Both the position numbers and the translations under genes were made by a program. A DNA stretch of 54,566 bases from contig JAGWYA010000001.1 in the NCBI GenBank assembly GCA_018969615.1, positions 1 to 54,566 on the forward strand, read 5' to 3'. This DNA comes from Patescibacteria group bacterium (GTDB lineage: Bacteria > Patescibacteriota > Minisyncoccia > UBA6257 > 02-FULL-45-10c). Position 1 is the first letter of the stretch; the number at the start of each line of letters is the position of its first letter. This document shows positions 120 to 38,970 of this stretch, piece by piece. The notes under the pieces are model-generated. The model did no database searches. It saw only the letters and a list, made by a program, of their open reading frames with translations, and was not told where the DNA came from.

Positions 120-2144
120 CTATTGGTATTCGGTCCAGGTAGCCGGGCAGCTTCCATAGCCGGATGCCGCGTTTATTTGATAGGCATATCCCGGCGGGAC
201 AATAAAGAATGCAGATGCGTAAGATCCGGATGCACCGCCATTATTTACAGTAACCGACGCTTGAACAAGATACGTAGGGTTTGTCTTGGCGCTTGGAGTT
301 CCGAGATAGGAAAAGAAACCGGCTACAACGTTTCCGTTGCTCAAGAGCCCGGACTGTGCCGCGACGAAGATCGGCTTCGAGGTGTTGTTGGTATAAACGG
401 TGCTGCATGCCCGGCTTGTGCTGACCGGGCTTGAGAAATAAGTACTCCCATTTTCCGCGATCGAAGAGCCGGGAGCGCCGGTAAGCATAGAGCCGTCGGG
501 GAATTTAATGCCGTCCACACCCGGTGTGCCGCCGATGGTGAGCTTTGCGGACGGGCTGGTCGTTCCGATGCCGACATTTTGCGTCGTGTCTTGAACATAG
601 GTGCTGCTTCCGGACGTTCCCCAGATGGAGTTTGAGGTTGCGGAATCGGCGGTTGTTTTCATGCAGTAAGTTAAAGCAATGTTCGCCGGGCGGGTTTCTG
701 CTCCAGTGCGTGGAGTGCCGTTCGCCCCGTCTGCGCGGAAACCTATTGTTCCTACGCTGCCCCCCGTAGGTGAACTTCCCTGAACTAAGCTTTGATATCC
801 GCTCGCAGAAACTCCTATAGGCACACTCATCTCGAATCCTTGGAGTTGATCGTTTTGTTCTGCGTCAAGTGTTCCTGAGAAAAATGCTCCGTTTGCGTTG
901 GTATAGGTTCCGTTCGTTCCTGCGCCGCGGACGAACATACCGCGAAGGTCGGGGGTTCCGCTGGTGCCGTCGGCAAGGATCCAGCCGGTCGGGCAGGTTG
1001 ACTGATTGAAGGCTGCGATCGTATTTGCCGGGATGCCGCTTCCCAATGAGGCAGTTGATTGTACCGTCCCATCCGGGAATTTAAAACCTCCGGTCTCGGA
1101 GTAGATCGTTCCGTTCGCGTCGAGCGCCGAATTTGGCGTAGAGGTTCCGATCCCGACATATCCCTGGTTGCCGTCCACCTCAAGGATATTTGCGTGCTTA
1201 TAATTCCCCGCATCATCAGTCGAGCTGAATTCGAGTTTTTGGTTCGCCTGGCGGAGGAAGATCTGCTTGGTATTTGCCGCGCCGCCGGAGTGGATGAAGT
1301 CGAGCTCGGCGCTGTTCGCGCCCGCGATCGCAATGACCGCACCGATCGAGCCGGTTCCATTTACTTCCAGCGCCGGGCTGTAAGTGTAAGAAAGCCCGGT
1401 CGCACCGATCGCGCCCGGATTCGCCGTTCCGATGCCGACCTGTCCGGAAACAATGAGTCCGCCGGTCGGAGCGGTATTCGCTCCAGCGAATGTCCCAAAT
1501 GCCGCACCGCCATTGACGTCGAGGCTATTGGCCAGAGAGGTGACTCCAATCCCGGCGCCGCCGCTCAAAAGCAGGTTCTGCCAGCGGGCGCTGGTCTGGC
1601 CGACGCTGTAGGTGTTGTCGGTTCCCGGGACGATGTCGGAATCGAAGGTTGCGGCGCTTACCCGCGCGACGGCGGAGGTGAGCGTCTTCGTAAACGCGCT
1701 TTGTGTATTGGTGGTGTTATAGCTCAGAGAAATGTTCACCTGGACGGAGTCATGGCCCGGATAGGCAGTGACTTTTGTGAACTGCAATTGATCCGCATTC
1801 ACTTTACTATTCGTCAGAGCAAGAGGGCTCGCCGTGCCTTTTTTCATATAGATCGTTGTCCCGGAGGTATAGATCGTGGTCGGATCTAATGCCGGGTCCG
1901 CCATCCGAAGCTTCAAAGTCGTTGTCGCCACATTTGCATCGGTATCGATCTCGCTTGAATCGCGCACCTCGGTTTGGATGTTCTTTAAGACGAAGTCGAT
2001 CTGCTGATTCACTTCGGTCGAGGCATCCTGTGAATTTTGGAGTTTTAAAACGCTCAGAAGCGTTTGGTTCAAAAAAACACCCGCGACTCCGACGAGGGCG
2101 GTGTAGATCATAACCTCAGCTAATGAAAAGCCTTTTCTGTGCAT
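120..2144 (-). CDS. Type IV prepilin-like protein fused to a phage tail collar-like adhesin
   Basis: The 674-residue protein opens with a prepilin peptidase site (KGFSLAEVMIY) and a hydrophobic helix, as in type IV pilins and pseudopilins. Residues about 30-165 look like a pilin or minor pilin globular part. From about 170 onward come repeats of the VGIGT-x-xP type (for example YVGIGTSTPNSALD), common in tail-fibre and adhesin stalks. Around residue 375 is a collar-like segment (CPTGWILADGTSGTPDLRGMF) resembling phage tail collar domains; the fibre motif VGIGTTSP recurs after it. Length far exceeds a usual pilin (120-200 aa). Known: such prepilins are inserted in the membrane and cleaved by PilD. 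Inferred: a surface appendage tip that binds a host or surface. No pilus assembly genes are adjacent. An extended -10 (TGGTATACT) lies 32 nt upstream of the ATG. Confidence 0.82.
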   Translation of the reverse strand: MHRKGFSLAEVMIYTALVGVAGVFLNQTLLSVLKLQNSQDASTEVNQQIDFVLKNIQTEVRDSSEIDTDANVATTTLKLRMADPALDPTTIYTSGTTIYMKKGTASPLALTNSKVNADQLQFTKVTAYPGHDSVQVNISLSYNTTNTQSAFTKTLTSAVARVSAATFDSDIVPGTDNTYSVGQTSARWQNLLLSGGAGIGVTSLANSLDVNGGAAFGTFAGANTAPTGGLIVSGQVGIGTANPGAIGATGLSYTYSPALEVNGTGSIGAVIAIAGANSAELDFIHSGGAANTKQIFLRQANQKLEFSSTDDAGNYKHANILEVDGNQGYVGIGTSTPNSALDANGTIYSETGGFKFPDGTVQSTASLGSGIPANTIAAFNQSTCPTGWILADGTSGTPDLRGMFVRGAGTNGTYTNANGAFFSGTLDAEQNDQLQGFEMSVPIGVSASGYQSLVQGSSPTGGSVGTIGFRADGANGTPRTGAETRPANIALTYCMKTTADSATSNSIWGTSGSSTYVQDTTQNVGIGTTSPSAKLTIGGTPGVDGIKFPDGSMLTGAPGSSIAENGSTYFSSPVSTSRACSTVYTNNTSKPIFVAAQSGLLSNGNVVAGFFSYLGTPSAKTNPTYLVQASVTVNNGGASGSYASAFFIVPPGYAYQINAASGYGSCPATWTEYQ

Positions 2145-2247: not shown

Positions 2248-2856
2248 CTATACTGCCGTCGGATCGAAGAATAAGATCAGAAGGGTTCGGGCAACGATCT
2301 TCATATCCAGTGAAGGGGACTGATGTTTCACATAGAAGTCATCAAGCGAGAGTTCTTTCAGGAAAGGAAGGCTTGAGGCGCCTTGGACCTGCGAATAGCC
2401 GGTAATGCCGGCTTTTGCGAGCGGAAGGTGGCGGTACTCGGCAGGATAATGGGCTATTTCTTCAGGTTCATGCGGCCGCGGGCCAACCAGTGAAAGTTCG
2501 CCTTTGAGCACATTGATGAATTGAGGGAACTCATCGATCCGGAACTTTCGGAGCACTTTGCCGACGCGGGTTAGACGGGGATCGCGGCGCATCTTAAAGA
2601 ACGGGCCATCGTGGCGCTCGTTGAGCGGAGCAAGCTCGCCATATTTAAGCTGATGGGAGTTCGCGCGCATCGAACGGAACTTATAGACCTTGATCAGTTT
2701 TCCTTCGCTGACGCGGTCGAGGGCAACAATGACCGGTCCGCGGGAATCGATCAGGATCGCCAGGGCGACGAACGGGTAGAGGACGACCATGATCGCAACG
2801 CCGATCAGCGATCCGATGATATCCGCAGTTCGCTTTGCAATTTGATACGAAAGCAT
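2248..2856 (-). CDS. Undecaprenyl-phosphate sugar-1-phosphate transferase
   Basis: This 202-aa protein matches the bacterial sugar transferase family (PglC/WcaJ catalytic core). It has one N-terminal hydrophobic segment (residues about 12-36), the KVYKFRSM block, the RIDEFPQFINVLKGELSLVG block and the PRPHEP motif. Such enzymes move a sugar phosphate from a nucleotide sugar to undecaprenyl phosphate, the first membrane step of surface polysaccharide or glycan assembly. It is the short form without the extra N-terminal membrane bundle. TATAAT ends exactly 6 nt before the ATG, suggesting a leaderless mRNA. It is divergent from the glycosyltransferase at 3014, likely its pathway partner. Confidence 0.9.
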   Translation of the reverse strand: MLSYQIAKRTADIIGSLIGVAIMVVLYPFVALAILIDSRGPVIVALDRVSEGKLIKVYKFRSMRANSHQLKYGELAPLNERHDGPFFKMRRDPRLTRVGKVLRKFRIDEFPQFINVLKGELSLVGPRPHEPEEIAHYPAEYRHLPLAKAGITGYSQVQGASSLPFLKELSLDDFYVKHQSPSLDMKIVARTLLILFFDPTAV

Positions 2857-30173: not shown

Positions 30174-30179
30174 TATATT
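30174..30179 (+). promoter_or_regulatory. -10 box of the giant glucan synthase gene
   Basis: TGG-TATATT followed by 7 nt (gaattat) and the ATG at 30187. This supports the ATG over the upstream TTG used by the ORF track, because the TTG overlaps the box. Confidence 0.55.
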
Positions 30180-30186
30180 GAATTAT

Positions 30187-33100
30187 ATGGCAGCATCAGA
30201 CCCCGATCACATCATAGCTCCGCACACGCCGGAGCATCTGGGTAAAGAGCTCGCCGCGTCCGTGAAGCTTTCGTTCAATGAGCGGCAGGCCGCCGCCTTC
30301 ATGAAAAAGACGCGGGAGACGTTCGTTCGGACCCGGAAGGTCTATCGCAGCTTGGCGCGCAATATCGACGCACGGACCCAGTATAATCAGGGATTGGAGG
30401 TCCTTTTGGATAATTTTTATATCGTTGACGCCGCGATCACCCAGCTTGCGTCGCGGTGGAAGGAGAAAGAATCGTTGCGCGTTCCGCAGATCGTGGATGC
30501 GGACGGGAAAACGCAGCTTCGCGTCTATATGATCGCGCGCGCGCTAGTGAAGCAGACCAACGGCGCGGTCGGACGGGAAGCGATCCTTTCTTTCTTGAAG
30601 GCGTATCAGCGGACCGCTCCGCTTTCGATCCGGGAGCTGGACATCTTTCCGGACATGCTCCGTTTCGCCCTGACCGAATCGATCGCGCGCTTTATTGAGA
30701 CGAACCTCGCCACGCTGCAGGAAATGAAGGAGGCGGATCGCTGGTATGACCAGATCGTAAAGGCTGGCCGCCGCAAGAACGCCTTTGTGCATCTCAAGAA
30801 GATCACCTCGCGGCTTGCGGCGCAGTACAGTATCATCCCGCAGTCATTCGGTCTGCATTTACTGCATCGGCTTTCTCAGACGGGAAAGGAGGGCGGCATC
30901 CGTATCGTTAGCAAGTGGCTGAAGCTCTCCATTTCCAAGCACGGCGTCAGCCATGCACAGCTTGCGAGCATGAATTCGCGTACGGAGCGGGAACAGATGG
31001 CGATCATCGCCAGTGCGATCTCAAGCCTGCGGTACTTGGGGCAGGTGCGCTGGGACCGGGTTTCGCTCGAATTGAACATGATCGACGCGGTTCTTGCCAA
31101 GGACCCTGCCGGCGCATTTTTGCCGCTGACGGAGGAGACTCGTTCGTTCTACCGGCGGACGATCGTCAGGATCGCCGACCGGACCGGAACCCATGATATT
31201 GAAGTTGCGCGCGAAGCGGTGCGCCTTGCCCGGCATGCCGCGGATACGGTAGCGGGGAACAGCCCTCGGACCGGGCATGTCGGCTATTATCTCATTGATA
31301 CCGGCATCGCCGATCTTGAGGCCGCGCTTTCTTATGAGCCCACTCCGCTGGAACGCCTCAGAGCTTTTATTCTGCGGCATGGAACCCGTGTTTATTTCAG
31401 CTTCATCGGCATCGCGATGCTTTTTTCGTTAGGGGCTCTTTTGGAGGCAAGCGATACGCTCCGGCTTTCTCCCGCTCCTTTTATTGCGATGCTCATCGCG
31501 GGCCTTTTGCTTTCATCCGAGGTCGCGACGGCGCTTGCGCACTTTATTTTCACTCGTGTTTTGAAACCGCGGCCGCTTCCGGCGCTTGATCTTCGCAGGG
31601 GAGTGGGCGAGGAGCGCCGCACGATCGTGGTGGTTCCGTCGATGTTTCGGGGCGGCGGGTTCGCAGAGAAGATAACCCGTCGGCTGGAAACGAACTTTAT
31701 CGGAAATAACGATCCGAATATCTTTTATGCGCTGCTGATGGATTTTCGCGATGCCGATTCGGCTGACATGCCGGATGATGAGGATCGCGTCCGGGAGCTG
31801 GAAGAAGAGATCGCGGCGCTGAATAAACGGTATCCATCGGTTCCGCAGCGATTCTCTCTTTTTTACCGTTCCCGTAAATGGAACGCCGCTGAAGGATGTT
31901 TTATGGGGTGGGAGCGCAAGCGGGGTAAGCTCCGCGAGTTCAATGCGCTGTTGCGGGGGAAGACAACGACCTATAGCGGTGATGCCGCTGCGCGCGCCCG
32001 GGCATACGGGAATGTCCCGTATATCCTTACGCTTGATGAGGATACCGAACTGGTCCGTGATTCCGGAAAGATGCTGATCGGCACGATCGATCATCCGCTG
32101 AACCGTCCGGTCATTGATCCGGTGCGCGCGGTGGTGACGGAGGGATACGGTATCGTCCAGCCGCGTTCAGCGCTGCGGTTCCGCGACGGGAACGCTTCGG
32201 TCTTTTCGAGGCTTTTCGGAAATTTCCCCGGCGTGGATACTTATTCGTTGCTTATCTCCGATCTCCATCAAGATCTGTTCGGCGAAGGGATCTTCCACGG
32301 AAAAGGAGTGTATAACATTGATGCGATCGAAGCGACGATGGGAGACCGTATTCCGGAGAACACCGTTCTTTCGCATGATCTTTTAGAAGGATTATATGCG
32401 CGGGTGGGCATTGCAAGCGATGCACGTATCTTCGAGGGGTTTCCGGCGAATTACCGCGAGTATATGCAGCGTTCGCATCGATGGATCAGGGGTGATTGGC
32501 AGATCATCTCGTGGCTTTTCGGTTCCCGAGGGAGCGTATTTTCGCCGATCGGCCGCTATCGGATCTTCGATAATCTTCGCCGGAGCGTGCTTCCGATCGC
32601 GGCGGTAGGCGGGATCATCGGTGCCGCATGGACCGCGGCGTATGTATCGACGTGGAGCATTCTTATTTTTCTTGCCCTGGGATCAGGCCAGCTCATCTCG
32701 TCATTCCTGACCATCACTGAGCGGACGATCAACTGGCAAAGTTCCATGAGCGCTTTCGCCCGTTTTGAATCTATGGTGAGCGGATTCGTCATCGCACTGA
32801 TCAAAACGGCCTTTCTCGGCATTTTTCTTTTGAATTATGCGGTTATCGCATTCGATGCGATCGTCCGCAGTATGTACCGTCTTTTTGTCTCCAAGCGGAG
32901 ACTGCTCGAATGGCAGACCGCTTATGAGGCGCTCGCCCAGCGGAAGAACTCGCTTTTGGGATTCGTGCGGTTCATGTGGCGGAGCCTCTTTTTCACCGCA
33001 GCATTTTTCTTTATTGAAGTGCATGTCAGCGCATTGAGCGATCCGGCAGCGCTTGCATGGGTGGCGGCATGGCTTGCCGCTCCGTTCTTTGCCGTTTTGA

Positions 33101-36100
33101 TCAGCGCAGAGCCGCGGCAGAAAGATCCGCTTTCAAAGCGTGAACGCCTTTATCTGCGGAAGATCGCGGCACGGACCCATTGGTTCTTTACCGATCTGGT
33201 GACGGAGCAGGACCATTGGCTTGTTCCGGACCATCTCCAGGAGGATCCTCCGAGCAAGCAGCATTCTCACGGCCCCGGCATGTCGCCGACCAATCTGGGC
33301 ATGTATCTTCTCGGCATGTCCTGCGGCCGCGAGCTTGGATTTCTGTCGCTGGAGGAGTATCGCGATCGAATCGAACGGGCGTTCACAAGCCTGGAAAAGC
33401 TCGAGCTGTATCGCGGACATTTCTTTAACTGGTATGAATTGAAGGAACTGACCCCGCTGGCGCCCAAATATGTATCATCGGTCGACAGCGCAAACCTCGC
33501 CCTGTCCCTTCTGTCAGTGCATGCCGCTTTAAAGAGCAGTACTGCGGCTCCGGTCATCGATACGGAAACCTTCGAGGGGTTCCGCGCGCAGCTGATGGTC
33601 TTGCGGGATGGATGCGATACGGCATTGGCGGGGCCATTGGACCGGAACGAGCGCCCCCTGATCGAAGAGATCAAGGCGGCGAGCGGGGAATCCCTTTCAT
33701 TGATCGGCAGGGCTTTTACCGAGGAGATCACGCCGCGCGGAAGCGATTTTATTTGGAGCGGAGTCGTGCATCGCTCCATTCAAATTCGGAATGCGCTTGA
33801 GACCTTGCGTCTTGAGGGGAAAAGCGAACGTTTTGAAGAGATATTCCTTGCGGTGCGCCATATGGAGGTCATTGCGGTCGCGCACCGCGATACCCTAGCG
33901 CATTATGTGGGATATGCGATGGTTCCCGTCGTTTCTTCGGTGGTCAGCAACAGCCGTTTGCATTCTTTGTATCTGAAACTGGCGGCATTCTTACAGAAGG
34001 TTCCGACGATCGATGCCCTGACCGACGGGCGCGTGCGGCGTGAGATCGAAGCGCTTGGCATGGATGAAGCGATCGCGCTTTCCGAACTTCCCCCTCCGGA
34101 GAAGGAACATGCGCGGGCATGGTATGCCGAAGTTCTGGAGCGCTTAGCTCTTGCCGAGCATAATGCCCGGGAGACCGCATACTCTCTTCATACGTCTGCG
34201 GAGAAGGCCGCTGCTTACGCGTACCGGATGGATTTTCGCTTCCTATATAACAAGGAGCGCGGATTGTTCCACATCGGATATAACCATACGACCGGCCGGC
34301 TCGACGAAGCGTTCTATGACCTCTTTGCCTCTGAGGCGAATTCGGCAAGCATCGTCAGTATCGCGAAAAACGATGTTTCGGAAAAACATTGGGGGTATCT
34401 GGGAAGAACGGTTGTAAAGAGCAGCGCCGGCGAAGCGGTGGTCGCCTCATGGGCAGGATCGCTTTTTGAATACCTGGGGACGCTGATCTATTTCGACGTC
34501 CCGGCCGAAAGCTTCTGGGGGACCTCGGCGCGGCATGCGATCGCCGCCCATCAATGGTTCGCGCGACGATACCGTATTCCATGGGGAATGGGCGAATCCG
34601 CATCCTCCCGCCAAGACGCCGAGCAGAATTACCATTATCAGGCATTTGGAGAGCCCTCGCTCGGATATAAGCGGGACCTTTCCGAATCGATCGTGGTTGC
34701 GCCGTATACCAGCGCGCTCGCCCTTTCGTTCGTTCCGCGCGCCGCGCTGATGAATTTCAAGCACCTGGAGCGCGCGGGCGGGTTTGGAAGATACGGATTT
34801 TATGACGCGATCGATTTTACGTTCGCGGAGCATCCCGCGAACCGGGAAGGAGGCGGCCGCCCTGCGCGGGTTTATTATGCGCATCATCAGGGCTTTATCC
34901 TTTCGTCGATCACGAACGTCCTTCGCGATAATTGGGTGCGGAAAATGATAGCCCGGGACCCAAGCATGGATGTCGCTTCGCAGTTATTTGAAGAAAAAAT
35001 GCCGGAGAATATTCCGTTGGAACGCATCAGCGTTGTCGTGCCGCGCGTGACCAAAACCGCGGAGGCGCCGCCGGTCGTTGAAGCGCGTCGCCAGTATCTT
35101 CCTTGGCACACGAAGGAAACCGCGTCGATCTTTATTTCTTCCGATAAGTATCGGTCCCGGATCACGTCTGCCGGCGCGGGGGAGAGCTGTTTTGATGACG
35201 TCTATATTACCCGGCCATCCCGCGATATGCTGCGCGAATCGACCGGAACGTTCTTTTATCTGTATGACAAGGCTAAGAACCGGATCTGGTCGCCGACGTT
35301 CATGCCGACGAAAGATCCCGGCGAGAAACTCTCGGTTTCGGCGGGGGAGCAGCTTATGGTATTTGACCGCCATGCCGATCCGGTTACGTCGTCGCTTGTG
35401 GCGACTCCGCTCCCTCGTGAGAATGGCGAACTGCGTGAACTGACCGTTCTGAACACAGGCGATTCCGACCGGACGCTGACATTCGGGGTTTGCGCGGAGC
35501 TTTCGCTGTCCCGGATCTCTGACGGTGCGGCGAACGAGAACTATGAGCGCCTTTTTGTATCGACTGAAACACAGTGGGACGGTCAGGCGATCATCGCTTC
35601 GCGGCCTGACCCGCATGATCGAAGCCGCACGATCGTCGCCGGATTTCTTCTGGCGAGCGATGCGAAAATTTCCGATCTCCGTACGATCCGCGAGAAGGAG
35701 GTATTCTATGGTTCGCCCCGCCGCATTGCCGCGCCTCCGGTGCTTGCCGATCTGAGCCGCGCCGATCACGCATTCCCTGTACATACGCTCGACAGCGTTG
35801 CCGCATTCGCCGGAAGCGTCCGTTTGCGCCCGCATGAGTCCCGCCGCATTACGCTGGTGTCCGCCGCAGGATACTCAAAGGAGCAGGTTCTTGCGACCCT
35901 GCGGCGATACCGTGACCAAAAGAGCATCCGAAGAGTCATTGAAAATGCCGATCAGGAAGGTTCGCGCTTCTTATCTGACCTCGGGATCGTTTCACAGCAG
36001 GGGTCGGTCTATGGAACGCTTGCGTCGCTCGCGATCGCACGCATGCTGCATAACCGCGATCTGTCGCCCGCAGGGAAGCCGACGCGGCCTTGGGTCTCTC

Positions 36101-38970
36101 CGTTATGGAAAATGGGCATTTCGGGAGTGCGCCCGATCATCCTGCTCTCGGTGGGCGGGGTGACCGATCTTCCTATGGTCCGTCAGCTGCTGGGATGCCA
36201 TGCGTATTTTGCGAAAAAAGGCATCCCGGTCGATATCGTGATCTTCAATACGCATGCGGGCGGCTATTTGAAAACATTTGAAGACGAGATCGAATTTCTT
36301 TTGAACGCGCAGACGCCGCCCGATCCGGCGACCGCAACGAGCAAGGTCTATCATGCCCGTGCCGAACAGCTTCGCGAAGATGAACGCACTGCGCTATTAA
36401 GCGCGGCGGCGATCCGCATCGATGCGAAAAAAGGATTTTTGACCGATGTGGTCGCTCAATTGCAGCGGGAGCACAACAAGGCGATCCCGCCTCAGCGCTT
36501 TGAGCCGCAGCGGGTTTCTTCGGGGAGCGTCTACGAGCCGATCATGCGCACTGATGTTTCAGCGCTTCAGTCGTTCAATGGGATCGGCGGTTATGATCCA
36601 AAGACCCGTGAATATGTGATCGAGCATACCCGCAAAGTACGCCCTCCACGCCCGTGGTCCAATATCATTTCGAATGACCGGATCGGGTTCATCGCGACCG
36701 ATCGCGGCATGTCATTTACCTGGGCGCGGAACAGCCACGACAATAAACTGACCGTTGCTTATAATGATCCGCTTTCCGAATCAAGCGCTGAAGCCTTTTA
36801 TGTGCGCGATGATGCATCGGGAGCATCGGCAAGCCTTACGCCGCTGTTCGGCCCTTCGAATGCGGAATACGAGGTGCGTTTCGGTGAGCAGACCTGCGCC
36901 TATCGGACGAGAGCGCTGGGGATCGATATGGAATTGACGATGTATCTTGATCCGGCCGAGGCCGTGAAATATTATCGCATCGCTTTCACGAATACCGGCG
37001 GCGTTGAAAAGCGCTTGTCCGTGTTCGGATATTTCGAGCTTTTATTGGGAAGTATGCCGAATGAAACGAAGAAACTTTTCTCGCTGACGGCGCATGCCGG
37101 AAAATCGATCGCCGCCGTCCAGAACTATCGCCATACATTCCTTGAAAGCCGGGCGGTTGCCGGAATTGTCGGCGGAGCCGATGTGATCAGCGGCAGCAGG
37201 GAGGAGTTCTTGGGCCGGTTCGGTGACGGGAGCGCCCCCGCTGCGTTAGCGAAAGCAACTCTGAGCGATGCGATCGATACCGGCGATGAGGCTGCCGCCT
37301 CATTCCAAAAGAAGCTCGTGATCCCGGCGGGCGGATCGGCGGTTACTACATTCTTCCTCGGGGAAACGACCGAACCGAATATCGATCATTTTATCCGTTC
37401 CGTTGCCGATGTTTTCGCAGCGGACCGTGCGCTTCGGGATGTCCGAACCGTTCCGGTTGCCCTGGCGCTTCCGGCGTTCGATCTGCCTGATAAGACATTG
37501 ACGACGCTTATGAACCGTTTTCTGCCGCATCAGACCGTTATGTCGCGTATCCATGCGCGGCTCGGATTCTCTCAGATCGGCGGTGCGTTCGGATTCCGCG
37601 ATCAGTTACAGGATGCGCTGGCGGCGCTTTGGTATGATCCGCAGTGGGCGCGGGAGCATATCCTCGCCTGTGCCGCCCATCAGTTCAGGGAGGGCGATGT
37701 CTTATCGTGGTGGATGCCGTATAACAATTTTGGAGCCCGTACGCTTCTGTCCGATCCGCAGTTGTGGCTTCCGTATGTGGCCCTGTCCTATGTCTCGTTT
37801 ACCGGCGACCAGGCGATCCTTGATGAGGTCGTTCCGTATTTGGTCGGCGAGATCCCCGACTGGGAAGAAAGACCGAGCGTCACGAATGTGTTCGAAATAA
37901 GTTCTGAAAAAAGTTCGCTCTATGAGCATCTGATCCGCGCGGTTGAACACTCGCTAACCGCCGGTTCCCATGGATTGCCGCTGATGGGAACGGCCGATTG
38001 GAATGACTCCATGAATCGGGTAGGCAGCGAAGGCGCCGGTGAAAGCGTCTGGCTTGCATGGCTTACTGTCGCCGTATTGGATACCATGAGCAAAGTAACC
38101 GACGAACGAAAGGATCCCGACCGCGCTGCCCGATACCGGTCCCACGCTGAACAGTATCGCGCTGCGCTCGAGCAGGCGGGATGGGATGGCCGCTGGTACC
38201 GGCGTGCTTTTACCGATACCGGCGCGCTGGTCGGCAGCAATGGTTCGCGGGCATTCCGCCTTGATTCGATCGCGCAATCATGGGCGTATTTCACGAACGG
38301 AGCTTCCGATAAAACAAAAGAAGCGCTCCGGTCAGCGAAAGAAGTGCTTGGGATCTATGAAGGCCAGGTGCCTTTGGGCTGGCCGCCGTTATCACGAACC
38401 ACGCTTGATCTGGGAACGATCTCCGATTATCCGCCGGGTGTCCGCGAGAATGCATCGCAGTATGATCATGCGGCGTTATGGCTTGCGCAGGCGCTGTTTG
38501 CGGTGGGCGATCCGGACGCCGGAAAACTGATCCTTGATGCGGTGAATCCTTTCCTTCGCAGTGAAACGCGCGAGAAAGCACTGGTCTATCAGGGAGAACC
38601 GTATGCGGTCGCTGCGGAGATCTATTCATCGCCGACCTATCCGGGCAGAGCGGGATGGACCTGGTATACCGCTTCGGCGGGTGCGTTCTATCGGACCGTG
38701 ATCGAGTATCTTTTGGGTATGATGCGAAGCGGCCAGGCGCTCTCATTCTCGCCGTCGTTTCCTTCCGATTGGCGTTCGGCGCATGTCATGCTTCCGTTCG
38801 GATCGGCCCGGTATTCCATCGAGTACTCAGTGGAGGGCGGAAGCGTTTCATCGGTGGAAGTCCATTGTGATAAAGTTCTTTGCTCGGACGGCGTGGTAAC
38901 GCTCGTCGATGATGCACAAGAGCATACGGTTCAGGTGAAGATCACGCACGCCTCGCAGGGAAAGAAGTGA
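30187..38970 (+). CDS. ndvB: Cyclic beta-1,2-glucan synthase-like giant enzyme (GT84 + glycoamylase-like + GH94)
   Basis: The 2,927-aa protein has the length and order of NdvB/Cgs. The N-terminal region (about 1-380) is helical; membrane helices lie near 400-460. The GT84 glycosyltransferase core follows: IVVVPSMFRGGG, LTLDEDTELV (metal-binding Asp), HGKGVYNID, LSHDLLEG and QRSHRWIRGDWQ (about 480-780), then more helices (800-1000). About 1345-1590 is a glycoamylase-like (DUF3131/GH144-type) domain. The C-terminal part is GH94 phosphorylase-like with the acid ADWNDSMNRVG and YPPGVRENASQYDHAA. Known CGS proteins polymerise UDP-glucose on themselves, set ring size by GH94 and release cyclic glucan. 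That reaction here is inferred. It is a single-gene unit; the NdvA exporter is not adjacent. Confidence 0.9.
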   Translation: MAASDPDHIIAPHTPEHLGKELAASVKLSFNERQAAAFMKKTRETFVRTRKVYRSLARNIDARTQYNQGLEVLLDNFYIVDAAITQLASRWKEKESLRVPQIVDADGKTQLRVYMIARALVKQTNGAVGREAILSFLKAYQRTAPLSIRELDIFPDMLRFALTESIARFIETNLATLQEMKEADRWYDQIVKAGRRKNAFVHLKKITSRLAAQYSIIPQSFGLHLLHRLSQTGKEGGIRIVSKWLKLSISKHGVSHAQLASMNSRTEREQMAIIASAISSLRYLGQVRWDRVSLELNMIDAVLAKDPAGAFLPLTEETRSFYRRTIVRIADRTGTHDIEVAREAVRLARHAADTVAGNSPRTGHVGYYLIDTGIADLEAALSYEPTPLERLRAFILRHGTRVYFSFIGIAMLFSLGALLEASDTLRLSPAPFIAMLIAGLLLSSEVATALAHFIFTRVLKPRPLPALDLRRGVGEERRTIVVVPSMFRGGGFAEKITRRLETNFIGNNDPNIFYALLMDFRDADSADMPDDEDRVRELEEEIAALNKRYPSVPQRFSLFYRSRKWNAAEGCFMGWERKRGKLREFNALLRGKTTTYSGDAAARARAYGNVPYILTLDEDTELVRDSGKMLIGTIDHPLNRPVIDPVRAVVTEGYGIVQPRSALRFRDGNASVFSRLFGNFPGVDTYSLLISDLHQDLFGEGIFHGKGVYNIDAIEATMGDRIPENTVLSHDLLEGLYARVGIASDARIFEGFPANYREYMQRSHRWIRGDWQIISWLFGSRGSVFSPIGRYRIFDNLRRSVLPIAAVGGIIGAAWTAAYVSTWSILIFLALGSGQLISSFLTITERTINWQSSMSAFARFESMVSGFVIALIKTAFLGIFLLNYAVIAFDAIVRSMYRLFVSKRRLLEWQTAYEALAQRKNSLLGFVRFMWRSLFFTAAFFFIEVHVSALSDPAALAWVAAWLAAPFFAVLISAEPRQKDPLSKRERLYLRKIAARTHWFFTDLVTEQDHWLVPDHLQEDPPSKQHSHGPGMSPTNLGMYLLGMSCGRELGFLSLEEYRDRIERAFTSLEKLELYRGHFFNWYELKELTPLAPKYVSSVDSANLALSLLSVHAALKSSTAAPVIDTETFEGFRAQLMVLRDGCDTALAGPLDRNERPLIEEIKAASGESLSLIGRAFTEEITPRGSDFIWSGVVHRSIQIRNALETLRLEGKSERFEEIFLAVRHMEVIAVAHRDTLAHYVGYAMVPVVSSVVSNSRLHSLYLKLAAFLQKVPTIDALTDGRVRREIEALGMDEAIALSELPPPEKEHARAWYAEVLERLALAEHNARETAYSLHTSAEKAAAYAYRMDFRFLYNKERGLFHIGYNHTTGRLDEAFYDLFASEANSASIVSIAKNDVSEKHWGYLGRTVVKSSAGEAVVASWAGSLFEYLGTLIYFDVPAESFWGTSARHAIAAHQWFARRYRIPWGMGESASSRQDAEQNYHYQAFGEPSLGYKRDLSESIVVAPYTSALALSFVPRAALMNFKHLERAGGFGRYGFYDAIDFTFAEHPANREGGGRPARVYYAHHQGFILSSITNVLRDNWVRKMIARDPSMDVASQLFEEKMPENIPLERISVVVPRVTKTAEAPPVVEARRQYLPWHTKETASIFISSDKYRSRITSAGAGESCFDDVYITRPSRDMLRESTGTFFYLYDKAKNRIWSPTFMPTKDPGEKLSVSAGEQLMVFDRHADPVTSSLVATPLPRENGELRELTVLNTGDSDRTLTFGVCAELSLSRISDGAANENYERLFVSTETQWDGQAIIASRPDPHDRSRTIVAGFLLASDAKISDLRTIREKEVFYGSPRRIAAPPVLADLSRADHAFPVHTLDSVAAFAGSVRLRPHESRRITLVSAAGYSKEQVLATLRRYRDQKSIRRVIENADQEGSRFLSDLGIVSQQGSVYGTLASLAIARMLHNRDLSPAGKPTRPWVSPLWKMGISGVRPIILLSVGGVTDLPMVRQLLGCHAYFAKKGIPVDIVIFNTHAGGYLKTFEDEIEFLLNAQTPPDPATATSKVYHARAEQLREDERTALLSAAAIRIDAKKGFLTDVVAQLQREHNKAIPPQRFEPQRVSSGSVYEPIMRTDVSALQSFNGIGGYDPKTREYVIEHTRKVRPPRPWSNIISNDRIGFIATDRGMSFTWARNSHDNKLTVAYNDPLSESSAEAFYVRDDASGASASLTPLFGPSNAEYEVRFGEQTCAYRTRALGIDMELTMYLDPAEAVKYYRIAFTNTGGVEKRLSVFGYFELLLGSMPNETKKLFSLTAHAGKSIAAVQNYRHTFLESRAVAGIVGGADVISGSREEFLGRFGDGSAPAALAKATLSDAIDTGDEAAASFQKKLVIPAGGSAVTTFFLGETTEPNIDHFIRSVADVFAADRALRDVRTVPVALALPAFDLPDKTLTTLMNRFLPHQTVMSRIHARLGFSQIGGAFGFRDQLQDALAALWYDPQWAREHILACAAHQFREGDVLSWWMPYNNFGARTLLSDPQLWLPYVALSYVSFTGDQAILDEVVPYLVGEIPDWEERPSVTNVFEISSEKSSLYEHLIRAVEHSLTAGSHGLPLMGTADWNDSMNRVGSEGAGESVWLAWLTVAVLDTMSKVTDERKDPDRAARYRSHAEQYRAALEQAGWDGRWYRRAFTDTGALVGSNGSRAFRLDSIAQSWAYFTNGASDKTKEALRSAKEVLGIYEGQVPLGWPPLSRTTLDLGTISDYPPGVRENASQYDHAALWLAQALFAVGDPDAGKLILDAVNPFLRSETREKALVYQGEPYAVAAEIYSSPTYPGRAGWTWYTASAGAFYRTVIEYLLGMMRSGQALSFSPSFPSDWRSAHVMLPFGSARYSIEYSVEGGSVSSVEVHCDKVLCSDGVVTLVDDAQEHTVQVKITHASQGKK

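Follow-up and report, generated by a model that had tools for sequence, protein, structure and literature searches.

The modular type IV pilins carry a non-pilus module on the C terminus of a small pilin, as in PilB and PilC of S. sanguinis (Raynaud et al. 2021, PMC8179133). The survey in that paper counts more than 1,200 modular pilins in 264 architectures. According to its main text, pilins joined to S74 (IPR030392) and to PF13385 (LamG) are among the commonest, and CPR pilins, such as those of Wolfebacteria, are included. S74 is taken there for a peptidase, and the word "tail" is absent from the main text. The mosaic adhesive trimer (MAT) fibres of Bdellovibrio (Caulton et al. 2024, PMC10769870) are VGIGT beta-helices in which one end is conserved and the tips are mosaic (S74, C1q/TNF-like, lectin). 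At their N terminus, a signal peptide precedes a conserved, beta-rich domain of ~130 aa, and the surface element that holds them is unknown according to the authors.

Several minor pilins are also relevant here. TcpB is homotrimeric, and its C-terminal part trimerises at the pilus tip (PMC9565799); CofB is homotrimeric as well, as cited in PMC9045228. In PilV of conjugative plasmids, an exchangeable C terminus sets the recipient range, and the exchange, by a shufflon, uses a dedicated recombinase (PMC9045228). In the Patescibacteria, the minor pilins PilX1 and PilX2 of TM7x have additional domains at the C terminus (jelly roll, beta-propeller), and the T4P-2 pilus of TM7x contributes to host binding (PMC12206443). 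The Kil pilus of Myxococcus uses interchangeable minor-pilin tips in predation (PMC12075869).

The window, that is, the whole stretch of 54,566 nucleotides analysed here, contains a gene in which a prepilin is joined in frame to sequence related to phage tail fibres. The gene, its parts and the neighbouring gene are as follows.

120-2144, reverse strand: pilin-fibre fusion gene, one uninterrupted open reading frame of 674 aa with an ATG start and without internal stops or a frameshift.
2130..2144, reverse strand: class III (prepilin) leader MHRKG with predicted cleavage after Gly5 (sequence; N_methyl, 22.3 bits).
1959..2129, reverse strand: pilin alpha-1 helix, residues 6-62, predicted assembly and membrane helix (AlphaFold helix 8-62, pLDDT 90-97).
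1665..1919, reverse strand: pilin beta-sheet head, residues 76-160 (AlphaFold strands 76-160, pLDDT 86-97 in nearly all blocks).
1554..1652, reverse strand: graft point and first fibre repeat, residues 165-197, FDSDIVPGTDNTYSVGQTSARWQN..LSG (most conserved motif of the family).
1056..1553, reverse strand: fibre shaft with VGIGT-xx-P repeats, residues 198-363 (phmmer match to Bd2133; PHROG tail fibre families).
645..1055, reverse strand: T4 gp12-like receptor-binding ("collar") head, residues 364-500 (PHROG 1800; profile against the PDB).
429..644, reverse strand: second fibre repeat, residues 501-572, VGIGTTSPSAKLTIGG...IKFPDGS (PHROG 28668, 4.5e-5).
123..428, reverse strand: C-terminal tail-fibre tip, residues 573-674, SRACSTVYTNNTSKPIFV...FFIVPPG..Y..WTEYQ (29 viral contigs; BFVD fold match).
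2248..2856, reverse strand: neighbouring sugar transferase gene (Bac_transf), part of a locus conserved in 12 genomes.

On sequence grounds, residues 1-160 are assigned to a type IV minor pilin. The N terminus reads MHRKG followed by FSLAEVMIYTALVG, with a Gly before the predicted cut and a Glu at +5 (residues 1-10, MHRKG/FSLAE). Among 76 relatives, G5 and F6 are nearly invariant and E10 is invariant. In hmmscan, the Pfam N_methyl profile reaches 17.2 bits and falls short of the 21.2 cut-off, which it passes with 22.3 bits in a six-frame genome search. No match to the CofB or TcpB domains was found for the 674-aa protein in the Pfam hmmscan; one relative shows a sub-threshold match to the CofB pilin domain. 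An AlphaFold model of the stem, built from an alignment of 58 relatives, has a mean pLDDT of 85 and consists of a 55-residue helix (8-62), a beta-sheet head (76-160) and a less certain linker. An earlier note on this DNA had claimed a prepilin cleavage site and a pilin helix in one frame with a fibre, and the leader, the high-confidence stem model and the unbroken 674-aa frame bear this out.

A fold search with the stem model gave no significant match to a solved pilin, the best hit being avidin-like (E 0.02). Profile matches of the stem to solved pilins are weak and lie mainly over the N-terminal helix, and homology settles the identity of the stem better than the fold search does. When 380 Patescibacteria genomes were searched with the stem profile, relatives were found in 154. 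Outside the order, these are mostly stand-alone minor pilins of ~165-240 aa, and the match ends at about residue 140-160. Because the homologous pilins mostly end there, the pilin is the old part and the fibre an addition, grafted on at about residue 160-165. The protein is like the modular type IV pilins in its class III leader, its alpha-1 helix and beta-sheet head, its extra C-terminal module, and the presence of PilD and pilus machinery in the genome. It differs from those in the main text of PMC8179133 in that a complete phage-type fibre, receptor-binding heads included, has been grafted on, and in that the tips turn over at one syntenic locus.

The most conserved motif of the family lies at residues 167-188, FDSD..PGTDN.Y.VG....RWQN, and includes F167, P173, G182 and W188. 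Since this motif already belongs to the fibre, the fibre begins at about residue 165 and not at residue 170, where the earlier note had placed the start of what it correctly described as a fibre body. Residues 165-197 match a phage tail spike weakly (6eu4, E 0.047) and have low pLDDT as a monomer. The VGIGT-xx-P repeats described in that note are present in three exact copies, at residues 236, 330 and 524, and in one degenerate copy (GIGVT) at 198. The closest match for the VGIGT repeats is Bd2133, a crystallised MAT fibre of Bdellovibrio (8ond; phmmer E 1.5e-6, residues 300-370). The pilin-fibre family has in common with the MAT fibres both the VGIGT beta-helix and mosaic, divergent tips on a conserved base. 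Instead of the signal peptide and the ~130-aa domain of the MATs, however, the pilin-fibre protein has a prepilin stem, so that it works like a MAT fibre but belongs with the modular pilins.

Mid-protein, the fibre carries a head with the motifs CPTGW at residue 384 and TPDLRG at 397 (segment 384-402). The PHROG "tail collar fiber" family phrog_1800 matches residues 289-497 (5e-13). Pfam Collar (PF07484) scores 13.2 bits with this protein alone, below the 24-bit cut-off, which is passed by the relatives L082 and L046 (84.7) and L187 (81). A profile of residues 364-500 and their viral homologues matches the receptor-binding domain of T4 gp12 (1ocy, 8e-21; 9cuy, 2e-21) and the tip of T4 gp37 (2xgf, 9e-8), and the gp12 match spans the whole receptor-binding domain (1ocy residues 10-196). 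Relatives of the collar head are encoded on 188 viral contigs. The tail collar-like segment of the earlier note is thus supported by the PHROG and gp12 profiles, although not by the Pfam model. The head does not have the HxH motif that most of its viral relatives possess, and QGFEM stands there instead. In gp12, the HxH histidines form the axial metal site; in the present head this site, should it be important, is not conserved. Unlike in T4 gp12, the head here is part of a cellular pilin gene and is followed by further shaft and a tip.

This tip, residues 573-674, is a second phage-type module, which the earlier note had not named. Tail proteins of Rhodoferax phage P26218 and of Pseudomonas phage PG1 ("tail fiber protein H") can be aligned with it at their ends, and these matches are weak when taken alone (E 0.07-0.4). 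A single-sequence scan of viral contigs with residues 330-674 gave no match, but alignment-based scans did; with the tip, 29 viral contigs were found, with the common motif SRALGTTYTNSTGKPI...FIVPxGxTY...WxE. The tip is the one part of the fibre heads for which a fold model was made. The model is all-beta (pLDDT 72) and matches phage tail fibre ends in BFVD (E 1.4e-4, probability 1.00); in the PDB, the nearest folds are C1q/TNF-like trimers, at a non-significant level. The Peptidase_S74 domain is absent from the C terminus of the protein and present in 4 of the 76 relatives. Collar and fibre folds are indicated by homology to the solved gp12 and gp37 structures and by the tip model. A phage-style receptor-binding module on a minor pilin, as the note had suggested, is supported by the sequence, homology and structure data, and the fused architecture together with the motif matches is well beyond chance.

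Fusions of this stem to fibres occur in about 75 Paceibacteria genes, among others from Candidatus Harrisonbacteria, Liptonbacteria, Colwellbacteria, Wolfebacteria and Jorgensenbacteria. It is conserved in 63 loci in a scan of genome contigs and in most close relatives. In contrast to the conserved stem, the part behind it ranges from 31 to more than 1,700 residues in 76 proteins. Among the tips that could be named are S74 (4), LamG (2), Collar, C1q, LVIVD, EPTP, F5/8C and kelch; the LVIVD and kelch tips are propellers, and these two, like the LamG, C1q, F5/8 and S74 tips, resemble adhesins. Many tails also match phage tail PHROGs. The 44 long tails fall into 31 end clusters, as defined by a 90-residue test, since the VGIGT repeats inflate looser counts of shared ends.

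In 12 genomes, the gene lies in a conserved locus with the sugar transferase, a GT4 glycosyltransferase and usually LepA, which was not found near the gene in L082, L093 and L138 and is on the other side in L090. These 12 syntenic genes have 10 different tips (collar, S74, C1q, lectin and others) at a stem identity of 31-70%. Stem duplicates with different tips also occur within one genome, in L131/L132 (95.7% identical stems) and L065/L066 (87.5%), and the genes L097 and L105 of two genomes have a 98%-identical stem and unrelated tips. Variation of the C-terminal half, which had been named as a point to check, is real and large.

Collar heads are found on the pilin stem in at least three genes, the present one, L082 and L187. 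The same collar module also occurs on a different, non-pilin N-terminal anchor in about 20 paralogues of genome G068, and therefore modules move between anchors. G068 belongs to the same order (L175-L180), and its dispersed genes have one anchor, AIGLFACAISIFAFSSPGSNQPPNGNPxFWLLSGTSMYY, with varied collar and other fibre tips. This is a large adhesin repertoire for a genome of ~0.9 Mb.

Like PilV, the protein is a minor pilin with an exchangeable C terminus; the dedicated recombinase of PilV has no counterpart noted at the pilin-fibre loci read, and the downstream flank of the present gene lies beyond the contig end. Diversification of the adhesin by a DGR was ruled out, as no reverse transcriptase (RVT_1) was found in the genome. 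Repeats near L132 were considered as tip cassettes and rejected, as no tip reading frame was seen at the repeat copies.

Some of the fibre genes have an unusual structure. An S74-tipped fibre protein (L189:1616-4369, reverse strand) contains an intein (PF14890, E 3e-19) between its fibre repeats. In genome G040, one of three pilin-fibre copies (L064:4607-7567, reverse strand) is split by a TAG exactly between the pilin (157 aa) and the fibre (823 aa); pilin and fibre may here be two distinct proteins, or the gene may be broken. At L054:7353-11636 (forward strand), three genes stand in tandem, with a pilin-anchored LVIVD-propeller fibre between two fibres with ordinary hydrophobic N termini, and all three have a linker motif in common.

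The best reading of these data, as judged from sequence, is a pilus-anchored, MAT-like adhesin with exchangeable tips. We think it likely, with good though not full confidence, that the gene encodes a minor pilin of a Paceibacteria type IV pilus with a grafted phage-tail-fibre-like adhesin, the phage-type heads of which are swappable across the lineage. The adhesin is probably trimeric; TcpB and CofB are a precedent for a trimer at the pilus tip, although the accounts of them cited here describe no gp12-like or VGIGT modules. PilD would cut the leader after Gly5, and the alpha-1 helix would enter the pilus, most likely within a minor-pilin tip complex. From about residue 165, three copies would be held together by the fibre as a beta-helical shaft, which would display the gp12-like head mid-protein and the tail-fibre tip at the C terminus. 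The target of the heads on a partner or host cell would be some surface structure, probably a glycan, and retraction of the pilus would then pull the cells together. With the stem kept and the heads exchanged across the lineage, the target range could shift while the pilus is left untouched. PilX1 and PilX2 of TM7x differ in that they have other domains, are not predicted PilD substrates and carry no phage-type fibre, and the Kil pilus differs in being a Tad pilus with tip complexes of several proteins. Four observations count against the preferred reading: the position of the gene outside a pilus operon in this genome, the lack of a significant fold match for the stem, the missing HxH motif, and the relatives with only short caps.

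The target of the fibre might be an environmental polymer, a mineral or the bacterium's own kind, as in aggregation or biofilm, instead of a host cell. The tips of the relatives include generic lectin-like and C1q-like folds, and the genes around the pilin-fibre gene are glycan-synthesis genes. As both heads belong to families used on phage tails, and as the fast turnover of the tips would be expected for a biological target that changes more than for one that stays constant, we regard such a non-host target as rather unlikely. Host attachment is the likely function of the pilin-fibre protein, and this we hold with moderate confidence. The source bacterium is probably host-dependent, episymbiosis being judged from its lineage only.

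The prepilin helix might also serve as a mere membrane anchor for a MAT-like surface fibre that is processed by PilD and not built into a pilus. In the genome, the gene for the prepilin peptidase PilD shares a row with genes for PilB, another T2SSE ATPase, PilC, PilM and pilins, and a second row contains PilB and PilC again, along with pilins and two further fibres. The pilin-fibre gene lies outside both rows, and the two other fibres start with ordinary hydrophobic segments, which, with the non-pilin anchors of the collar modules in G068, would fit simple anchoring. Against this, conservation extends beyond the helix to the whole pilin head, which has homologues throughout the phylum in stand-alone minor pilins. 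Several relatives moreover encode the gene within pilus operons: in L096 it lies 24 bp upstream of PilM-N-O, in L109-L111, L121 and L143 it is near PilM-N-O, and in L133 it is part of a PilB-PilC-pilin row. We therefore consider simple anchoring improbable and incorporation into a pilus the better explanation. The two other fibres are VGIGT fibres of 1994 aa (L041:7-5991, reverse strand) and 717 aa (L041:9341-11494, reverse strand), among the pilin genes of the second PilB/PilC locus, and the 717-aa fibre has kelch repeats. Between them, a 428-aa reading frame (L041:6540-7826, reverse strand) has a 23S rRNA intervening-sequence/bAvd-like domain in frame with a pilin-like membrane segment, and is perhaps two genes read as one. 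Elsewhere in the window, a reading frame of 2930 aa (30178-38970, forward strand) combines the supersandwich and catalytic domains of GH94 with a domain similar to glucoamylase, and it matches a glycosyltransferase weakly; it resembles a cyclic beta-glucan synthase, which is unusual for a 0.8-Mb genome.

The protein might also be a plain minor pilin whose C-terminal extension, degenerate or passive, functions only in pilus assembly or secretion. This would agree with the relatives in which the stem is capped by just 31-76 residues; indeed, not every member of the family needs a long adhesive fibre. The tail of the present protein, however, retains intact phage-like domain motifs across 474 residues, and the long tails are diverse, many of them resembling recognisable fibre or adhesin architectures, which makes a passive extension very improbable. 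Finally, an assembly chimera, a frameshift or a prophage fragment attached to a pilin gene, which the position of the gene at the contig end (contig C4 starts at base 1) might suggest, is practically ruled out by the recurrence of the same fusion in about 75 genes from dozens of independent genomes, 12 of them at the same locus, by the stop of the reading frame inside the contig, and by the housekeeping and glycan genes next to it.

A search of the literature, mostly outside subscription journals and preprints, found no paper that joins phage-type receptor heads or tail fibres to pilins of Patescibacteria. Modular pilins, including pilin with S74, pilin with LamG and CPR examples, are already in the main text of PMC8179133, and MAT fibres with mosaic tips have been published as well (PMC10769870). 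"Pilin plus collar" may be listed somewhere as a single architecture, for example in the supplementary dataset of PMC8179133. As far as we found, three things are new: phage-type receptor heads on a pilin, the turnover of tips at one syntenic locus, and the connection with MAT fibres.

The published pilin and S74 "peptidase" architecture is more likely a self-processing trimeric fibre. The results also bear on what holds the MAT fibres of Bdellovibrio to the cell, as in Paceibacteria a pilin serves as the carrier of such a fibre. The kept pilus end and the swapped gripping end suggest exchangeable recognition of partner cells. It is possible, though we advance it only tentatively, that the type IV pilus of Paceibacteria is a cellular counterpart of the phage tail, with exchangeable heads, some of them phage-derived, that are swapped to change the partner organism. 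For the way in which uncultured Patescibacteria select and keep hold of their hosts, the pilin-fibre protein is a concrete candidate, the head of which can be produced alone.
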